Positions 10,318 to 63,379 of a stretch of 64,000 nt of DNA are shown here, in pieces. Source of the DNA: an uncultured Clostridia bacterium (GTDB taxonomy: Bacteria > Bacillota > Clostridia > Christensenellales > Borkfalkiaceae). The notes below the pieces were generated by a model. The model ran no database searches. It saw only the letters and a program-made list of their open reading frames with translations, and had not been told where the DNA came from. Made by a program: the position numbers and the translations under genes. Each line of letters opens with the position of its first letter. Within the stretch, counting starts at the first letter, position 1. Location: the NCBI GenBank assembly GCA_944327625.1, contig CALVHL010000002.1:62001-126000 (forward strand), written 5' to 3'.

Positions 10318-11527
10318 GAAATCTGCTCAATTTATCCGCATAGATCTTTTCGACCTTGACGCGACAGACGAGCCCGCTTTCGGTATACGAGGAGGAGAGC
10401 ACGCTGACGTTCTGCTTTATCGCCTCGAACTCGCCGAGGGAGGAAAAGGGCACGGACAGATCGAGCGTTAAATACCTATCGGCAAAGGCAGCTTTTATCT
10501 GCTCTTTAAGCGCGGCAATGCCCTGACCGCTCTTTGCGGAGATGAGCACGCAGTCCGAGGGGAGCGACGAAGCTTCCTCGACGAGGTCGCATTTATTGAG
10601 CACTTTTAGAACTTTTTTGTCGAAGCCGAGTTCGTCCAGCGTTTTGGAAGTCGTCTCAAATTGAAGTTCGTAATCGGCGGAAGCGTCCGCCACAAACAGC
10701 GCGAGATCGCAGGAGAGGGCGACTTCGAGCGTCGATTTGAACGCCTCGACTATGTCGTGCGGAAGTTCCTGGATAAAACCGACGGTATCGATGAGGAGAT
10801 ATTCTTCGTCGTCGATGACGAGTTTGCGGGCGGTGGGATCGAGCGTGACGAACAGCGCGTTGCGCGACACTACGTCCGCGCCCGTCAGAAGATTTAAAAG
10901 CGTCGATTTGCCCGTATTGGTGTACCCGACGAGCGCTAAGGTCTTTACGTTTGACTTTGCGCGCCTGTCGGTCTGCAAGACACGACGGCTCTTGGTCTCA
11001 TCAAGCCGTTTTTCAAGATATTTAAGCCTGTAAGCAATATGCCGCCTGTCGGTTTCGAGCTGGGTTTCACCCGGGCCGCGCGAACCGATGCCGCCGCCGA
11101 GCCGCGAAAGCGCCGCTCCTTTGCCCTTTAATCTCGGATAAATATATTTGAGCTGGGCGATTTCGACCTGTATTTTACCCTCGCTCGTGACGGCGTTTCT
11201 TGCAAAAATATCGAGAATGAGCGTCGTTCTGTCGATTACCTTTCTGTCGCCGAGCGCGGCGGAAATATTGAGCGTCTGGGAGGGGGAGAGTTCGCCGTTG
11301 AAAAGCACGGTGACATCCTCGATCCCGTCGAGCGTTGCGGCAATTTCGGCGAGCTTTCCGCTGCCGATATACGTCGCGGCATTGACTTCGCGCACGTTCT
11401 GATACGCCGAACCGATATAGACCGCGCCCGCGCTCTCGATAAGCGCGACGGCTTCGGAGTGAACAACCCTGTAATTATCGCTTAAAACGGGCTGAATTAC
11501 AAATACTTTTTCTACTTTTTCAATCAT
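10283..11527 (-). CDS. hflX: GTPase HflX
   Basis: HflX is a ribosome-associated GTPase that splits stalled or hibernating ribosomes. The protein has 414 residues: an N-terminal HflX domain with the glycine-rich GGGIGSRGPGETQLE segment, a coiled helical pair (about 160-195), and the G domain with GYTNTGKS (about 201-208), DTVGFI and NKCD motifs. ATG 11527 is preferred over GTG 11533 because GAGG lies six bases before it. It overlaps the recombinase gene upstream by eight bases, so the two are probably co-transcribed. The 3' end overlaps the convergent small gene by 35 bases. Confidence 0.93.
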   Translation of the reverse strand: MIEKVEKVFVIQPVLSDNYRVVHSEAVALIESAGAVYIGSAYQNVREVNAATYIGSGKLAEIAATLDGIEDVTVLFNGELSPSQTLNISAALGDRKVIDRTTLILDIFARNAVTSEGKIQVEIAQLKYIYPRLKGKGAALSRLGGGIGSRGPGETQLETDRRHIAYRLKYLEKRLDETKSRRVLQTDRRAKSNVKTLALVGYTNTGKSTLLNLLTGADVVSRNALFVTLDPTARKLVIDDEEYLLIDTVGFIQELPHDIVEAFKSTLEVALSCDLALFVADASADYELQFETTSKTLDELGFDKKVLKVLNKCDLVEEASSLPSDCVLISAKSGQGIAALKEQIKAAFADRYLTLDLSVPFSSLGEFEAIKQNVSVLSSSYTESGLVCRVKVEKIYADKLSRFLTACDELPPRP

Positions 11528-12587
11528 CGTCACCCTCGTCGTTCCGCCGAAGTCTGACCTTGTCGGCGACCGCCCTGCGATTATCTTCGCTTATTGCCGC
11601 ATAGTGCTTTCTGGTCGTATTTATGTCCTTATGCCCGAGCACGTCGGCGACAATATATATGTCGCCCGTAGCCCTGTACAGCTGCGTACCGTAAGTACTG
11701 CGCAGTTTGTGCGGGGATATTTTTTTGAGCGGAGAGACTACGCGGGCATATTTTTCCACGAGATTTTCGACCGCCCTGACGGTTATTCGCTTCTTCTGAG
11801 AGGAGAGGAACAGCGCGCCGCCGTCTGCCATAATGAGATCGGTCTGCTTTTTGTATTCGATATAGCGGGAGAGCGCCTCGGCGACGTCTTCGCCGAAATA
11901 AAGTATAGATTTGCCGCCGCCCTTGCGCGTGACGATAAAGGAATTATCCTTGAAGTTTATATCGTCGTTGTTCAGCCCGACAAGCTCGCTTATACGTATT
12001 CCCGTACCCAGAAACAGTATTAAAATGGCGCTGTCGCGCACTTTATTGCGTTCGTGAAAGCTTTTTTGGCGAGGCGAAAGTCCGACGCCGCTTTCCGCAG
12101 TGTCAATAATATTGACTACTTCATTGCCGTCAAGCCTGATTATGGGGCGCTCGTGTAGCTTAGGAGTGGCTACTTTTGCCGAATTATTGACGGAAATCAG
12201 CCCTTTATTGAAGAAATACTTGAACATCGCCCTGACCGACGAGAGTTTTCTCGCCTTGGCGCGCTCGTTGCAGTTATGTTGTTTGCCGCCATAAGTGTAA
12301 TTTGACAGAAAAACGAGGAAATACTCTATATCGCTGTTGGTCACGGCTTCGATATCGAGCAAAGTCAGCTCCTTGACGTCCTTATTTTTGAGCTTTTTAG
12401 TGCACAGATAATAGAAAAATATTTTGAGGTCGTGCGCGTAATTGAGGCGGGTGAGAGGGGACGTCTGCGAGTCGATTGCCATAAAATAGTCGAGGCAGAA
12501 AGGGGGCAGTTCTTCGTCCAAAAGCCGCTCGATAGTCTTTAAATTATCGTTATTTCGCTGGGTGTAATAATCTGAATTTTCCTTCAT
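11520..12587 (-). CDS. Tyrosine recombinase, XerS-like
   Basis: The 355-residue enzyme carries all six active-site residues of the family: R198 (GTGIRIS), K222 (TRKGGGK), H293 and R296 (SPHKLRSTYG), H319 (LGHK) and Y329 (TRKHYA). XerC and XerD are usually about 300 residues; this length and the insertion before the catalytic domain (about residues 140-185, with FHERNKVRDSAI) fit XerS, the single recombinase that acts alone at difSL in streptococci. That assignment is inference from length and remembered XerS features. Xer proteins resolve chromosome dimers at dif with FtsK. Its location beside a dif-like site and a skew switch agrees. A consensus promoter ends about seven bases before ATG, so the mRNA may be nearly leaderless. 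It overlaps hflX by eight bases. Confidence 0.8.
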   Translation of the reverse strand: MKENSDYYTQRNNDNLKTIERLLDEELPPFCLDYFMAIDSQTSPLTRLNYAHDLKIFFYYLCTKKLKNKDVKELTLLDIEAVTNSDIEYFLVFLSNYTYGGKQHNCNERAKARKLSSVRAMFKYFFNKGLISVNNSAKVATPKLHERPIIRLDGNEVVNIIDTAESGVGLSPRQKSFHERNKVRDSAILILFLGTGIRISELVGLNNDDINFKDNSFIVTRKGGGKSILYFGEDVAEALSRYIEYKKQTDLIMADGGALFLSSQKKRITVRAVENLVEKYARVVSPLKKISPHKLRSTYGTQLYRATGDIYIVADVLGHKDINTTRKHYAAISEDNRRAVADKVRLRRNDEGDDD

Positions 12588-12593
12588 AAGATG

Positions 12594-12622
12594 ATTTTAC
12601 AGCAAAAAAAAGATAATGTCAA
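12594..12622 (-). promoter_or_regulatory. Promoter of the Xer recombinase gene
   Basis: On the minus strand TTGACA (12617-12622) and TAAAAT (12594-12599) are separated by 17 bases. The -10 ends six bases before ATG 12587. A copy of the dif-like arm sits seven bases upstream of the -35. Confidence 0.8.
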
Positions 12623-12629
12623 TTGTCTG

Positions 12630-12642
12630 TTTTACGAATAAA
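12630..12642. promoter_or_regulatory. Exact copy of one dif-like arm in the xer promoter
   Basis: TTTTACGAATAAA here is identical, over 13 bases, to the right arm of the dif-like site at 13177-13189. The matching left arm is absent. It lies just upstream of the recombinase promoter, so the recombinase may bind here and control its own gene. Confidence 0.6.
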
Positions 12643-13157
12643 TTAAGTTGATGAAATTTTTTAATTTCTGACCTTTTCGGATGGGGTAGAATACAGTAAA
12701 CTATCAAAAATGTTTCACGATAAACTATCAGAAATTGTCGAAAATGAGGTATAAAAATAAGGGGCGCAGACAAAATTTAAGTAAGCAGAGCCGTGAAACT
12801 GCGCGAAAAATGTAAATGAGCAAATGGGAAATATTGGAAATAAATATTGAATGGGAGCAATTTAAAGTAAAATTTTTTGAGACGATTAAGCGGGATAAAT
12901 AAACGGCAAAACAAATAATCACAGTAAAATTTTAAGAAAGGTATAAAAGGAATATAGAGAAGACTTAAAACACCGCTTAATAAATGACAGAAGAATTAGA
13001 ATAATATAATAAGTATGAAGCTTGATTAAACGGAATACGATAAGAGAGAAGCTGCGAAAAAGCGAAATTTCAGGTTTTAATAGGGTGAGATTTTTTATTA
13101 AGCTGACGAGATTTAAGGATTTCTGAGAGCGATTTTGGCAAAACGGGAGTATATGTA

Positions 13158-13189
13158 TTTATTCGTAAAACACAGCTTTTACGAATAAA
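13158..13189. other. Candidate dif site (Xer recombination target)
   Basis: Two perfect 13-base arms, TTTATTCGTAAAA (13158-13170) and TTTTACGAATAAA (13177-13189), flank a six-base centre CACAGC. The spacing equals that of Xer sites (arms of 11 or more bases around about six). The inner AAAA and TTTT ends recall difSL. It lies about 570 bases from the recombinase gene and about 150 bases from the skew switch. Confidence 0.7.
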
Positions 13190-13844
13190 GAGGGCATAAT
13201 ATAGTGCAGGAGAGGGCTTGCGGCTACAAAATATTGAAAAAACGCAAATAAACGATCTGTAATTAAGATTAAATTTGAGTTTAATTAATCTGTAAGATAA
13301 TTTTATTTTAAAATTAAATTGCAGTACAACGCATTAAAATTGTCGGCTTAAATTCTATAACAATCTACAAGTGCGTTATGAGGCAACTATTCTGAATTAT
13401 GCGATAATTTATTTCAACTTTAATTTACAATCGTCCGTAGCGTAGCGCTACAACCGCGTCACGCTACAACTAGCGATAAACGCGCCTTAATTTATGCTCT
13501 GGCAACCCGACCAACCACTCACACAGCGCACTTTATAAGCCACAATCCGCGGAATTTAATAAAAATATCGCTAAAATCGCGGTAAATTGCGTAAAAATCG
13601 TCCTGTACGGCGCGAAATTTATCTGCAATGCGTCACACGACGAATTAAAATCTCATAACTTTAAAATGTTTCGGAACGAATTTACTTTATAAAATCGGCG
13701 CAAAACCAAAAATATAAATTACCGCCATTTCAAATAGCAATTTATTTGCAAGTAAATCATCAGCTTATTCTTGCCTCAACATTTTTCGGAAAAAAAGGCA
13801 CAAAAGCGCTTGAAATTTGCCTAAAAATACATAATATTCGCTAT

Positions 13845-13862
13845 TATGTCTGACATAGTACT
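13845..13862 (+). repeat. Copy of dispersed motif TATGTSTGACATAGTACT
   Basis: TATGTCTGACATAGTACT abuts the glgP terminator. Near-identical copies occur at 49910-49927, 27963-27980, 46321-46333, 1332-1345 and, on the other strand, 7702-7720. TATGTC and GACATA form an inverted repeat around one base. Confidence 0.6.
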
Positions 13863-13901
13863 AAAAATAGCAGGTAAAAATTGAAATTACCTGCTATTTT
13901 T
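13863..13901 (-). terminator. Terminator of the glycogen operon
   Basis: AAAAATAGCAGGTAA (13863-13877) and TTACCTGCTATTTTT (13887-13901) form a perfect 15-bp stem with a nine-base loop, 28 bases after the glgP stop. Confidence 0.92.
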
Positions 13902-13928
13902 ATACTTAATCAATGGATCTGAGATACA

Positions 13929-25200: not shown

Positions 25201-25244
25201 GATTTGACGGCGTCGCTTATCGAAGCGACGCCGTCAAATCTTTT
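25201..25244. terminator. Bidirectional terminator with 18-bp stem
   Basis: GATTTGACGGCGTCGCTT (25201-25218) and its exact complement (25223-25240) surround ATCG, followed by TTTT. It serves the XRE gene and the convergent hydrolase gene. Confidence 0.9.
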
Positions 25245-58523: not shown

Positions 58524-59853
58524 CTTCAAAATCTCCCGTGGCGCCGAACATATCGTATCCGTCGTCAGAAGTAATAATTACGTCGTACCATTCGCCCTGA
58601 ACGGCTTCGTTTGCGTTGAAATAGACCTTGCCGTCAATGTCGGGCGCGGAAAAATATGCTCTGCCGACAAAACAGTTGCGCTCATAGTCGATGCCGTCGC
58701 AGAGCACGCGCACGCTCCTGCCGATAAAGCCGTCGAGAAATTGCTTGCTTATCTGACGCTGTACGGCGTACAGCTTTCTGACGCGCCTACGCTTTACGCC
58801 GTAAGGCACCTGCCCTGCAAGCTTATACGCGGGCGTGTCGGGCTCTCTCGAATAGGCAAAGAACCCGCAGTTTGTAAGCCTTGCCTCTCTGAGGAAGTCG
58901 CACATTGCGTCGCACTCCTCCTCCGTCTCGGTCGGAAAACCTGTTATAAAGGTCGACCTGACGGCAATTTCGGGGACGGCCTCGCGCAGCTTTTTCAGAA
59001 GGTCGAGATAGCTTTGGCGGCTGCCTCGCCTGTTCATGAGTTTTAGCACCCTGTCCTCGCTGTGCTGGAGCGGTATATCGATATATTTGACTATCTTGGG
59101 GTTATCCCTTATCTCGGCGATGAGCTCGTCGTCTATCATATCGGGATAACAGTACAATAATCTTACACTACTAATGTTGACAAGCGTTGTCAGGTTTTTT
59201 AAAAAAGTTACAAGAAATTTTTTGCCGTACAGGTCGGTGCCGTAGCGCGAGACGTCCTGCGCGACAAGGATAAGCTCGCTTACCTCGCCGAGGTTTTCAG
59301 CCTCTTTCAAAAGCTTTTCCATCTCATAACTTCTGTACCGCCCGCGTATTTTGGGAATGAGGCAGTACGTACAGAAATTATTGCAGCCGTCGGCAATTTT
59401 AAGATAGGCATAATGACAGGGGGTAGTGAGCACCCGTCTGTCGGTTATAAGTTCTTCGCCCTTTCCGACTAAGTTTACCCTGTCCCCCCTATAAGATTTT
59501 TCAAGCGCGTCGAACAGCGAGGCATAGTCGTCTATGCCTAAGAACACGTCGACTTCGGGCAGTCCGTCGAATATTTCGCCTATATATTTCTGCGGCAGAC
59601 AGCCCGTCACGACTATCTTTTCGAGATTTTCGCTGCGCTCGGCGGCACAGCCGACTATCGTCTCGATAGCCTCTTTCCTCGCCTCGTTTAAAAACGCGCA
59701 GGTGTTGATGATGAGAATATTTGCCAGACTTTCGTCGTCGGTAATCTCGCAGCCCCTATCCCTGACGAGCTGTAACAATTTCTCGCTGTCTACGCGGTTC
59801 TTGTCGCAGCCGAGGGATATGAGCCCGAATTTCTTTGAAGTAAAATCAATCAT
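58516..59853 (-). CDS. rimO: Ribosomal protein uS12 methylthiotransferase RimO
   Basis: RimO is a radical SAM enzyme that methylthiolates an aspartate of ribosomal protein S12. The 445-residue protein has the N-terminal cluster-binding domain (SLGCDKNRVDSEKLL, INTCAFLNEARKEAI), the radical SAM motif CNNFCTYC, and a C-terminal TRAM domain (from about residue 370). The S12-specific choice over MiaB rests on GCDKNRVDSE and the length. It overlaps ftsK and pgsA by eight bases each. Confidence 0.95.
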   Translation of the reverse strand: MIDFTSKKFGLISLGCDKNRVDSEKLLQLVRDRGCEITDDESLANILIINTCAFLNEARKEAIETIVGCAAERSENLEKIVVTGCLPQKYIGEIFDGLPEVDVFLGIDDYASLFDALEKSYRGDRVNLVGKGEELITDRRVLTTPCHYAYLKIADGCNNFCTYCLIPKIRGRYRSYEMEKLLKEAENLGEVSELILVAQDVSRYGTDLYGKKFLVTFLKNLTTLVNISSVRLLYCYPDMIDDELIAEIRDNPKIVKYIDIPLQHSEDRVLKLMNRRGSRQSYLDLLKKLREAVPEIAVRSTFITGFPTETEEECDAMCDFLREARLTNCGFFAYSREPDTPAYKLAGQVPYGVKRRRVRKLYAVQRQISKQFLDGFIGRSVRVLCDGIDYERNCFVGRAYFSAPDIDGKVYFNANEAVQGEWYDVIITSDDGYDMFGATGDFEDE

Positions 59854-62800
59854 CGATGTCTCCGTAAGTTCTTACGAATTCCTCCTTGGAAAGCAGCACC
59901 TTTCTCGGCTTAGAGCCCTCCGACTGGGTGACATAGTTCATATTCTCCATCCAGTCGATTATCTTACAGGCCTTCATATAGCCGATGGGGAAGCGGCGCT
60001 GAATCATCGAAACCGAGGCCTGATTGTTGGTTACGCAGAATTTGAGCGCCTTGATGAAGGTGTCGTCTATCTTGGTCTCGACGTTGCCGCTCGGTTCGTC
60101 GGATGCAGTATCCTGGGGTTCTTCGACGGTATTTATAAAGTCGGAAACGCTCTGGTCGAAGTAACATTCGTTATTCTGCTTGACGAAGTCGGTGACGCGC
60201 TGAACTTCGGGCGTGTCGATGAAACAGCCCTGTATTCTGGCGAGTTCGGGGTTCTCGGCAGAACGGAAATAGCAGTCGCCCTTGCCGAGCAGCTTTTCCG
60301 CGCCGCCGATATCGAATATACATCTCGAATCGTCGAAGGAGTTGACCTTAAAGCCTATTCGCGTAGGCAGGTTGGACTTGATAAGTCCCGTAATGCAGTC
60401 GACGGACGGTCTCTGGGTTGCAAGAATGAGGTGTATGCCGCAGGCCCTCGCCTTCTGCACGAGCCTTATTATTCTGCCCTCTATGTCCTTCTTTGCCTGC
60501 AACATGAGGTCGCCGAACTCGTCGAGAATGATGACTATCTTGGGGAGCTTCTCCTCTCCCTCCGTAAGGTGAGCGTTGTATTCGCTGAGGTTCTTCGTGG
60601 CGACGCCCTTTTCGGTCATCTCCTTAAAGAGCTGATAGCGCCTCTCCATTTCCTTTATTGCCCAGTTGAGCGCCTTTATTGCCTTATCGACGTCGTAAAT
60701 TATCTCGTTGATCATCAGATGAGGCAATTTGTCGTAGGAAATGAACTCTACCTGTTTGGGATCGACGAGAATAAATCTCAGATCTTCGGGGCCGTACTTG
60801 TAGAGCAGGCTGATGATGAGCGCGCTGAGGCAGATACTCTTACCGCTGCCCGTAGTACCTGCGACCAGAAGATGAGGCATCTTGGTTATGTCGGGGCAGA
60901 CCACCTTACCGTCGACGTCCTTGCCGAATGCAAAGCAGAGCGAATTGGGCTTGCTGTTTATAAACTGACTGCTCGACAGTATGGTTTTAAGCCCGACGAT
61001 CGAACGCGAGGAATTGGGAACCTCGACGGAGATTGCGCCTTTTGAATAGTTGAGGTAGGCGTTTACGTTCTCCTTCATGAGCGCCATTGCTATCGATTCC
61101 CTGTATTTGAGGGCGTTCTTTATGTTGGTCTTATCCTTGATTATCACGTCGTAGCGGGTAATCGCAGGGCCGACGACGACGTTGGCAACTTCGCTGGCAA
61201 TGCGGAAATTTTCAAGCGTTTCGCAGATTATCTGCTTGCTTTCCTCAATTTCCGCCGTATTGACGTTGGTATTTTCGGGATAGTCGTCCAGAAGGTCAAG
61301 CTTCGGGCGGACATACTTCTTCCATACGTGGCGCGGCTTTTCTTCTGCCTTGGGCGCCTCCTCGGCGGGCTTTGGACTGTCGGCGACGTTGCGGACGTCA
61401 GGCTGAACAGCCTGAACGGGCTGGACGGGCTGAACGGGCTGCCTTGCCGGATTATCGGCAGTCGGCGCAACGCCCGTGCGGGCATTATCCCCCATCGTCT
61501 CTCTCCTCGGCACGTCGACAAGCCCGTCTACGGGGCCGAGAATATCGTCGTCGGCGTAGAGGTCGTCGGACTTCTCGCTGTCATCGTAGATATTTTCTAT
61601 ATTCCTTTCGCTTCTGTCGGCGCTTCTGTCGCGGTTGGAGAGCGCGGAAACGTCGGGCTCTATCCTGTCGTTTTTGAGACGGGGATTAGAGCTGCTGAAC
61701 AGATTGAAAAGGCTGTTCCTCTCCCCGCGCGAAGCCGTCGAGGGCTGTTCCGCGCTCTGCGAACGGCTATCGTCGGCAGGCAGTTGCGAAGACATATCGC
61801 GGGATTGCGAAGGTATCTCCCTGCCCTGCGCGAAACTGTCGCGGGGCTGCGAGGGCATTTCCCTGCTCTGCGCGAAACTGTCGCGAGATTGCGAAGGTAT
61901 TTCCCTGCTCTGCGCGAAACTGTCGCGAGATTGCGAAGGTATTTCCCTGCCCTGCGTAAAGCTGTCGCGAGATTGCGAAGGAATGTTGTAAATTCCGCCG
62001 TCGTCGGGAATTGCGGGGTTAATCTGTTCGCGAGAAGTAAATCTGTCGGTGAAAAGCGCCGAAGAACGCTCGCGCGAGCCGAAATCGGGGGTTGCAGCGG
62101 GCGCGGACTGAACTATATTATCGTCATGCTCGACAGAAACTCCGTCGTCCGCCGCATCAGTCAGATCGTCGGGCTCGTCGGATATAAAGGAGTTATCCTC
62201 CTCCGTCCTGCCGACGGAATAACTGTTGTACATTGCGTCGCCCGACGGCAGGTCGAGGTTGTCGACGGGGGTATCGCCGTAGATATACGAGGGCGCATTT
62301 TCTGCGGGCGAAGCGCTTTCCGCCTTTGCGGCATAGCTCTGGGTATATGTGCCGCCCTGCTCCGCACTTGCGGGCGAAGCCGCGTCGTTATTCTGCGCGG
62401 GGCGGTTGCCGCTTGAAAAACTGCGCCAATAGTCGTCGTTATTGCGGACGGGGTGATTGAAATAAGAGCTCTCATTGTAGATCATATTGCGGCGATAGCT
62501 CTCGGCGGCGAACTCTCCCGGCTCGAAAAGTATCTTCCTGCCGAGCTTCTCGCGGGAGAACTTGTCCTCGTCGATGTCGCGCTGTTCGCTCGTCCTGCCA
62601 GCGTTGCCGTAGACGGGCGCACCGCTTGCGGGCTGAGTATAGCTCTGCGCGGGTGCGGCATACGCCGCGTTCTGCGGCTGAGCCGTCCGCGCGTATCCCG
62701 CCGACTTGGGGTTGGTGACTATTTCAAGGTTTTCGTTTACCGAATAGAGGTTATCGGCGGGCTGCTCCTCCGCAGGCGCCTCTGCCTTGGGGGCTGCCTC

Positions 62801-63379
62801 GGCAATCGGCTGTTCCTTTGCGGAAGAACGCACGATATTGCCGAGCACTACGTTGCGGAGCGAAAGGGAAGCAATATAGCCCGAAAGCAGCGTTAGAAGC
62901 GAAAAGATGACGTAAGCGGCGATAAAGGTCATGACCTTAGCGACGGGATAGACGATAAGTCCGCTTATTACCCCGCCGAAAGTATAGCCCGAAAAGCCTG
63001 CCGAAGCGTTGTTATAGCATGCCGAAAGATATGCACCGTAGCTGTCGAGCGCATAGTCGCGGGTGCTGACCGAATGAAACAGCAGGAAAAGACAGGTAAC
63101 GCAGAGCGCGATATACACTATGACGCGCATTTTGAGCTTTATCTTCTTGTCGAACGCAAGGCGGACGCCGCCGTAAACGCAGAGCGCGACGACGAGAAAC
63201 GACGCATAGCCGAAAGTTCCGTACATAAAAGTACAGATGCCCGAACCGATTATTCCGAATACGAGTTTATTTGTCAGAAGTATTACGGTGACTATTCCGC
63301 TGAACAGCAGCAGCGTCACCCCCAGCGTCTCTTTGGTAAGTATGTATGATTGTTTGTCGTTGAAATGTTTTTTGCCCAC
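59846..63379 (-). CDS. ftsK: DNA translocase FtsK/SpoIIIE with extended repeat-bearing linker
   Basis: The 1177-residue protein has four N-terminal membrane helices (about 1-190), a very long linker (about 190-690), then the RecA-type motor with Walker A AGTTGSGKS (about 840-848), Walker B VIILDEFGDLM, and a winged-helix gamma domain at the end (FCVTNNQASVSMIQRRFPIGYMKACKIIDWME). Such proteins pump DNA through the septum; SpoIIIE does so into the forespore. FtsK also activates Xer recombination at dif in some bacteria. B. subtilis SpoIIIE has 787 residues, so the linker is about 400 longer. It is rich in S, Q, R, P and D and has a tandem repeat. The start is GTG 63379 after CGGGAG. Confidence 0.95.
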   Translation of the reverse strand: MGKKHFNDKQSYILTKETLGVTLLLFSGIVTVILLTNKLVFGIIGSGICTFMYGTFGYASFLVVALCVYGGVRLAFDKKIKLKMRVIVYIALCVTCLFLLFHSVSTRDYALDSYGAYLSACYNNASAGFSGYTFGGVISGLIVYPVAKVMTFIAAYVIFSLLTLLSGYIASLSLRNVVLGNIVRSSAKEQPIAEAAPKAEAPAEEQPADNLYSVNENLEIVTNPKSAGYARTAQPQNAAYAAPAQSYTQPASGAPVYGNAGRTSEQRDIDEDKFSREKLGRKILFEPGEFAAESYRRNMIYNESSYFNHPVRNNDDYWRSFSSGNRPAQNNDAASPASAEQGGTYTQSYAAKAESASPAENAPSYIYGDTPVDNLDLPSGDAMYNSYSVGRTEEDNSFISDEPDDLTDAADDGVSVEHDDNIVQSAPAATPDFGSRERSSALFTDRFTSREQINPAIPDDGGIYNIPSQSRDSFTQGREIPSQSRDSFAQSREIPSQSRDSFAQSREMPSQPRDSFAQGREIPSQSRDMSSQLPADDSRSQSAEQPSTASRGERNSLFNLFSSSNPRLKNDRIEPDVSALSNRDRSADRSERNIENIYDDSEKSDDLYADDDILGPVDGLVDVPRRETMGDNARTGVAPTADNPARQPVQPVQPVQAVQPDVRNVADSPKPAEEAPKAEEKPRHVWKKYVRPKLDLLDDYPENTNVNTAEIEESKQIICETLENFRIASEVANVVVGPAITRYDVIIKDKTNIKNALKYRESIAMALMKENVNAYLNYSKGAISVEVPNSSRSIVGLKTILSSSQFINSKPNSLCFAFGKDVDGKVVCPDITKMPHLLVAGTTGSGKSICLSALIISLLYKYGPEDLRFILVDPKQVEFISYDKLPHLMINEIIYDVDKAIKALNWAIKEMERRYQLFKEMTEKGVATKNLSEYNAHLTEGEEKLPKIVIILDEFGDLMLQAKKDIEGRIIRLVQKARACGIHLILATQRPSVDCITGLIKSNLPTRIGFKVNSFDDSRCIFDIGGAEKLLGKGDCYFRSAENPELARIQGCFIDTPEVQRVTDFVKQNNECYFDQSVSDFINTVEEPQDTASDEPSGNVETKIDDTFIKALKFCVTNNQASVSMIQRRFPIGYMKACKIIDWMENMNYVTQSEGSKPRKVLLSKEEFVRTYGDIDD
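61797..61985 (-). repeat. 42-base tandem repeat in the ftsK linker
   Basis: About four and a half copies of a 42-base unit encode a 14-residue repeat, IPSQSRDSFAQSRE with small changes (Thr for Ala, Gly for Ser, one Met for Ile). It covers about residues 465-527. The in-frame unit could change copy number by slippage without breaking the protein. Confidence 0.85.

Follow-up and report, generated by a model that had tools for sequence, protein, structure and literature searches.

Chromosome dimers in an uncultured clostridial bacterium appear, judging from its sequence, to be separated by one tyrosine recombinase acting at one short, mirror-symmetric site at the replication terminus. Both elements lie in a stretch of 64,000 nucleotides (assembly GCA_944327625.1, contig CALVHL010000002.1, positions 62,001 to 126,000; family Borkfalkiaceae, class Clostridia) that is called the window here and whose numbering is used throughout. 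Table 1 gives the coordinates. On grounds of position, conservation, single copy and co-occurrence, the inverted repeat upstream of the gene xer is very probably the chromosome's dif site, and the product of xer, the sole Xer found, the recombinase that resolves dimers there. Many other Clostridia, outside the few groups with described one-enzyme systems, have the same pairing of site and enzyme. According to the papers cited here and below, these groups are Streptococcus and Lactococcus, the epsilon-proteobacteria and the archaea (PMC5357621, PMC3025954, PMC2731167, PMC8138268, PMC4876114); Lactobacillus helveticus also has a xerS gene (PMC3025954), and an element of Bacillus cereus combines a difSL-like site with an XerS-like integrase (PMC4876114). 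No clostridial single-Xer site was found described in titles and the opening lines of abstracts, and the strings of the site motif matched nothing except a yeast-marker paper, both searches covering mostly literature outside subscription journals. What is new is a further lineage that takes in many clostridial families and is paired with a concrete site sequence.

Table 1. Coordinates, strands and basis of the features discussed.
Feature	Position	Strand	Basis or remarks
Candidate dif-like recombination site	13158..13189	.	arms 13158-13170 and 13177-13189, spacer 13171-13176
Single Xer-type tyrosine recombinase (xer), 355 aa	11520..12587	-	domain match, XerS-model score, family ortholog search, tree, catalytic residues
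Predicted xer promoter	12594..12622	-	by eye; -35 TTGACA 12622-12617, 17-bp spacer, -10 TAAAAT 12599-12594
Lone half-site identical to a dif arm, proposed autoregulatory	12630..12642	-	7 bp upstream of the xer -35 box
FtsK/SpoIIIE DNA translocase, 1177 aa, presumed activator	59846..63379	-	domain matches (alpha, motor and gamma domains)

On the + strand the site reads TTTATTCGTAAAA-CACAGC-TTTTACGAATAAA, two perfect 13-bp arms around an asymmetric 6-bp spacer that becomes GCTGTG on the xer strand. It stands upstream of xer, 570 bp from the start codon, and is the sole copy, at up to three mismatches, in a draft genome of 1.83 Mb (29 contigs, 96.9% completeness) of which the window forms part of contig 2. 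The original prediction had described this repeat, its distance of about 570 bases from a 355-residue recombinase with six catalytic residues, and the G:C counts on the + strand (135:65 over 12661-13320 and 80:117 over 13321-13860); all of these proved accurate. The surroundings (12588-13928) are an AT-rich 1.3 kb without genes, in which the local balance of G and C is sharply skewed and reverses close to the site. None of 300 shuffles of this gene-free stretch produced a perfect 13-6-13 repeat. The window also holds a perfect 13-6-13 repeat at 25205-25236, probably a terminator hairpin, and the shape of the palindrome alone therefore proves little.

The coding strand changes close to the site. 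Across contig bases 22001-126000, the open reading frames (ORFs) number 38 on the + and 10 on the - strand to its left and 4 and 31 to its right, with the best switch at 9.4 kb, as originally proposed. In 20-kb samples from four relatives (two with large contigs, two with single-contig genomes), the site-bearing stretch contains or borders a reversal of both GC skew and coding strand; the far side of G350 is irregular. Over joined 60-kb stretches the cumulative GC-skew maximum lies at -153 bp from the site in G116, -315 bp in G064, -1311 bp in G274 and +1338 bp in G350, and the A-T skew maximum falls 204 to 3494 bp away; the other skew switch of the single-contig G274 is about half a genome from the site. 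The expectation that skew switches at the site is thus borne out by these relatives and by the A-T skew maximum of the window's own contig (13,886, 0.7 kb from the site); for the GC skew of that contig it failed, as detailed below. Of eight sites that stand apart from xer, four mark a strand switch. The ORFs on the two sides number 12+/0- and 0+/16- in G485, where xer is 13 kb off, 14/0 and 3/9 in G502, 13/0 and 5/6 in G461, and 2/0 and 0/12 in Tyzzerella An114, with two left ORFs only. The site can therefore mark the terminus without the gene, and its sequence gives terminus positions in unfinished genomes.

The gene and the site are both widely kept in the family. An xer ortholog occurs in 156 of 201 family genomes (121 of the 131 good ones), and the catalytic residues R198, K222, H293, R296, H319 and Y329 are all retained in 102/102 aligned proteins from the family and its close class relatives. 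A total of 70 of the 156 loci were read, namely the window, the 29 top-scoring loci and 40 hand-picked over other genera. The site lies upstream of xer, at 15 or more of 18 core letters, in 69 of the 70, so the repeat is indeed conserved beside the gene as had been predicted; by eye, L035, L043 and L127 are weak and L100 has none. At 16 or more core letters, 85 of 96 family and class loci carry it, compared with 0/96 in the reversed control. The core is T(T/G)CG(T/C)AAAA-N6 followed by its mirror. Its outer arm bases vary by species and tend to match across the arms (TTTA/TAAA, ACTA/TAGT, ACAC/GTGT, ACGC/GCGT). For 44 distinct family sites, total arm symmetry comes to 11.02 of 13, above both the mean of 2000 shuffles (9.82) and the highest among them (10.34); with the class included, 59 sites give 10.92 (shuffle maximum 10.42). 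These sequences are related and hence not independent. Spacers are asymmetric, and certain ones recur, GCTGTG in 20/69 family sites and GCTGCA in 7/69. Because the outer four arm bases vary, the strict pattern TTTATTCGTAAAA-N6-TTTTACGAATAAA with three mismatches matched only 14 of the 201 family genomes, and its place was taken by inspection of the DNA preceding xer and by exact matching to a degenerate pattern. Locus L035 may have a site with perfect arms and a 9-bp spacer at the xer promoter (GTTACTGTG).

Beyond the family, 391 class genomes include 63 with a close xer ortholog (E <=1e-79), spread across many Clostridia families, and 43 with a more distant one. The degenerate pattern MTKCGYAAAAN6TTTTRCGMAK has an exact match in 31 of the 391, one copy each, and its reversed form in none. 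These matches fall in 28 of the 63 close-ortholog genomes versus 3 of the 328 others (Fisher p 4.5e-22, a value that ignores phylogeny and comes from a pattern derived from sites of close-ortholog genomes). Of the three, G371 has a distant homolog, whereas no homolog appears at E<=1e-35 in G418 or G431. Read locus by locus, 18 of 26 class loci have an upstream site (at least 15/18 letters), and seven of the eight misses come from genomes with an exact site elsewhere. This count omits L314 (genome shared with L195), L080 (Tyzzerella, site on a separate contig) and L277, L278, L281 and L317 (no such site seen) and keeps the site-bearing L276; adding L080, L277, L278, L281 and L317 gives 18/31. 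In Tyzzerella sp. An114 the ortholog is 47% identical and the separate-contig site has perfect arms.

A repeat that precedes xer at most of the loci inspected and whose arm changes tend to be matched might also act in the xer leader, as an operator or RNA hairpin controlling the gene without recombining. The distances argue otherwise: of the 28 exact-site genomes, 16 have the site less than 2 kb from xer, 6 have it at a distance of 2.5-13 kb and 6 have it on a separate contig, so that in 12 it stands off the leader, and when apart it can still mark the strand switch. Moreover, related spacers occur inverted relative to xer across the class, as well as in one family genome (CACAGC in L118), and no Rfam family scored over its threshold at the site. 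With unlinked sites at the strand switch, both spacer orientations and no Rfam match, the RNA-hairpin reading was rejected, and leader control of either kind is very unlikely.

Tyrosine recombinases often adjoin their attachment (att) site. The gene could accordingly be read as the integrase of a mobile element and the repeat as its att site, and some phages do carry the site, while in Bacillus ISL-34 two such sites lie near an XerS-like gene with other ORFs between them. Chromosomal regularity makes this highly improbable. The 156 family genomes with an ortholog nearly always have one, exact sites come one per genome and sit at the terminus, and the same genes, which we take to be glgP, hflX and lexA, adjoin the site in 6, 3 and 3 of 6 uncultured-Clostridia loci, some of them incomplete.

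The Xer protein itself matches Pfam PF00589 at 107.3 bits. No xerC/xerD pair was found in the draft genome, which has one Xer-like gene, and its three other tyrosine recombinases are integrases with SAM_3 N-termini of phage or integrative and conjugative element (ICE) type; the predicted reliance on a single recombinase stands in this respect. The FtsK gamma domain scores 72.8 bits (cut-off 30.6), and no second FtsK was found in the genome, whose sole copy sits in the window.

Among known systems, XerS/difSL is one candidate for identity. In Streptococcus and Lactococcus, XerS (about 356 aa) acts alone at a 31-bp difSL beside its gene, with FtsK involved, and the difSL arms TTTCCGAAAA and TTTTCTTGAAA are imperfect and unequal (PMC5357621). 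The window has in common with it one recombinase of the same size class, a site beside the gene, and FtsK, and the best NCBIfam model for its protein is XerS NF003462. The top-scoring XerS reference, L268, has both difSL arms 50-80 bp upstream of the gene and served as a positive control for this layout, which holds in the family and is not universal outside it. The enzyme might thus be a true XerS at a true difSL, with nothing different from streptococci. However, the model score of 186.9 bits is below the curated cut-off of 267, which 8 of 398 phylum genomes exceed, and the perfect 13-bp arms and 6-bp spacer are unlike TTTCCGAAAA/TTTTCTTGAAA. When 80 proteins were compared in a quick tree, the window protein fell into a class-wide clade of 39 (Shimodaira-Hasegawa-like approximate likelihood ratio test, SH-aLRT, 96), separate from a group of eight reference XerS proteins and a Bacillus XerS-like protein (99), the two sharing a branch (93), with several long branches flagged. 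The clade also stands apart from most XerC/XerD-type rows, and row L283 falls among more distant homologs. Full identity with the streptococcal system is therefore unlikely. The enzyme is XerS-like in a working sense and not an XerS member; missing the XerS cut-off, it is best called a new XerS-like variant. The prediction of an XerS-like protein holds as to the best model and falls short as to the cut-off and, tentatively, as to the clade in the quick tree, and that of a lineage-specific dif agrees with the difference from difSL.

Other systems provide partial parallels. XerH/difH of Helicobacter and Campylobacter likewise has one recombinase and a site often linked to its gene and near the skew peak (PMC2731167); it belongs to another phylum, and in a comparison limited to PDB sequences the window protein matches XerH 5jjv weakly (E 2.4e-6), the value for XerD 1a0p being 4.1e-21. 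The XerCD/dif system of most bacteria also joins tyrosine recombination at a short site near the GC-skew switch with FtsK, but employs two enzymes on two unlike arms (PMC3025954), whereas the window genome has one Xer found and symmetric arms. With its single enzyme and mirrored arms, the window system also recalls a phage one. In P1, one tyrosine recombinase, Cre, acts on loxP, which has two mirrored 13-bp arms and a spacer of 8 bp, compared with 6 in the window site; homology is not claimed.

Several findings weigh against a dif site served by a lone Xer. The cumulative GC-skew maximum of the window's own contig lies at 24,822, 11.6 kb from the site. Among unlinked sites, G304 has no significant strand switch, G210 is mixed on one side (5+/6- vs 0+/12-), and G362 and G221 sit at contig ends. 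At E<=1e-20, 45 of 201 family genomes lack xer (10 of the 131 good ones), including G006 with 98% completeness, and the exact degenerate site is missing from 35 of the 63 close-ortholog genomes. The pattern was drawn from close-ortholog genomes, so the link between site and ortholog is partly built in. Genome-wide hits at two mismatches are near background (68 vs 58 in the reversed control; 59 genomes, hand-summed), and therefore only linked or exact sites were used. Further Xer-like proteins exist in Tyzzerella An114 and Bacillus ISL-34, and the absence of XerC/XerD covers the window's own genome, a draft at 96.9% completeness.

If the site is dif, identical monomers of the recombinase would bind both 13-bp arms, as suggested by arms that are perfect and co-vary in relatives. 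Two sites would then synapse, and strands would be cut and swapped across the 6-bp spacer. By analogy with other tyrosine recombinases, the asymmetric spacer would make the site directional, and the outcome for a chromosome dimer would be resolution and not inversion. FtsK, encoded in the same window and equipped with a gamma domain, would presumably draw both sites into contact at the septum and trigger the reaction. A symmetric system of this kind, with one enzyme in place of two dissimilar ones, offers a way to study directionality and control by FtsK.

The enzyme probably also controls its own gene. The lone half-site adjoins the -35 box of the predicted promoter, which suggests autoregulation of the recombinase through a single arm. 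Of 70 family loci, 32 have a lone half-core, in one orientation or the other, no more than 250 bp from xer, versus 10 of 70 in the reversed control. In a combination picked after half-site sequences had been viewed, an arm followed after 0-10 bases by TTGAC occurs in 16/70 family loci, 0/140 control regions and 1/1400 shuffles, and with a gap of up to 22 bases in 21/70, 0/140 and 0/1400. By eye, the half-site of L041 and L028 lies within or just past the xer promoter elements and not before the -35 box, and its place seems variable.

Phages may have found a handle in the site as well. Nineteen viral contigs carry a degenerate site with ACT-type outer arms; in 12 of the 19 it lies between or beside terminase genes, recognized by hidden Markov model (HMM) in L070, L071, L321, L322, L324 and L329 and by reading similar ORFs in L062, L072, L073, L074, L320 and L326. 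The large terminases concerned belong to two or more dissimilar types, among them Terminase_3-like and phrog_38. In another five contigs, which are AT-rich (L064, L318, L319, L325, L327), the site is close to an ORF resembling a dUTPase, HMM-confirmed in L319 only; the spacer CTATCC is common to the chromosomal G461 site and four of these five, three of them near-copies. L323 and L328 belong to neither group. None of eight phage-collection loci has the site: seven lie around terminase relatives (two with fewer than 400 bases before the gene), and the eighth is the dUTPase region of Enterocloster phage PMBT24. A first viral scan had found the symmetric core in 22 contigs, 7 of them shared with the 19; chance hits are likely among the other 15, because the outer bases do not mirror in many.

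Through the host recombinase, the phage-borne site might be used for circularisation, for resolving dimers or for integration. In P1, Cre/lox circularises or monomerises the phage genome, and the location of lox near the packaging start resembles that of the phage sites. By this analogy one may tentatively imagine, as a rather doubtful generalization, that across the class the lone Xer is both resolvase and own regulator, with the half-site sensing free recombinase, and that diverse phages of such hosts repeatedly captured the host site beside their terminase genes, the place at which packaging starts, for Cre/lox-like circularisation or monomerisation by the host enzyme.

Some related arrangements lie outside these sets. 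Most of 19 loci scanned with distant xer homologs had no clear shared site. Among distant homologs, L313 has a similar site, and L299 a different 13-6-13-like upstream site, ACTATTCTTAAAA-TGTATA-TTTAGGGAATAGT, to which L315 is close; the two suggest a sister system with arms of its own. In viral contig L058 (410-1499), a symmetric-core site lies just upstream of an ORF for a 349-aa recombinase that shares 30% identity with the window Xer. In Bacillus sp. ISL-34 (L005 3866-6197, L081) the XerS-like gene (27% identical) is preceded by two sites, a dif-like one at about 50 bp and a perfect one at about 1.1 kb; the intervening ORFs presumably resemble a HEPN/MNT toxin-antitoxin pair, and the region could be a small site-flanked cassette.

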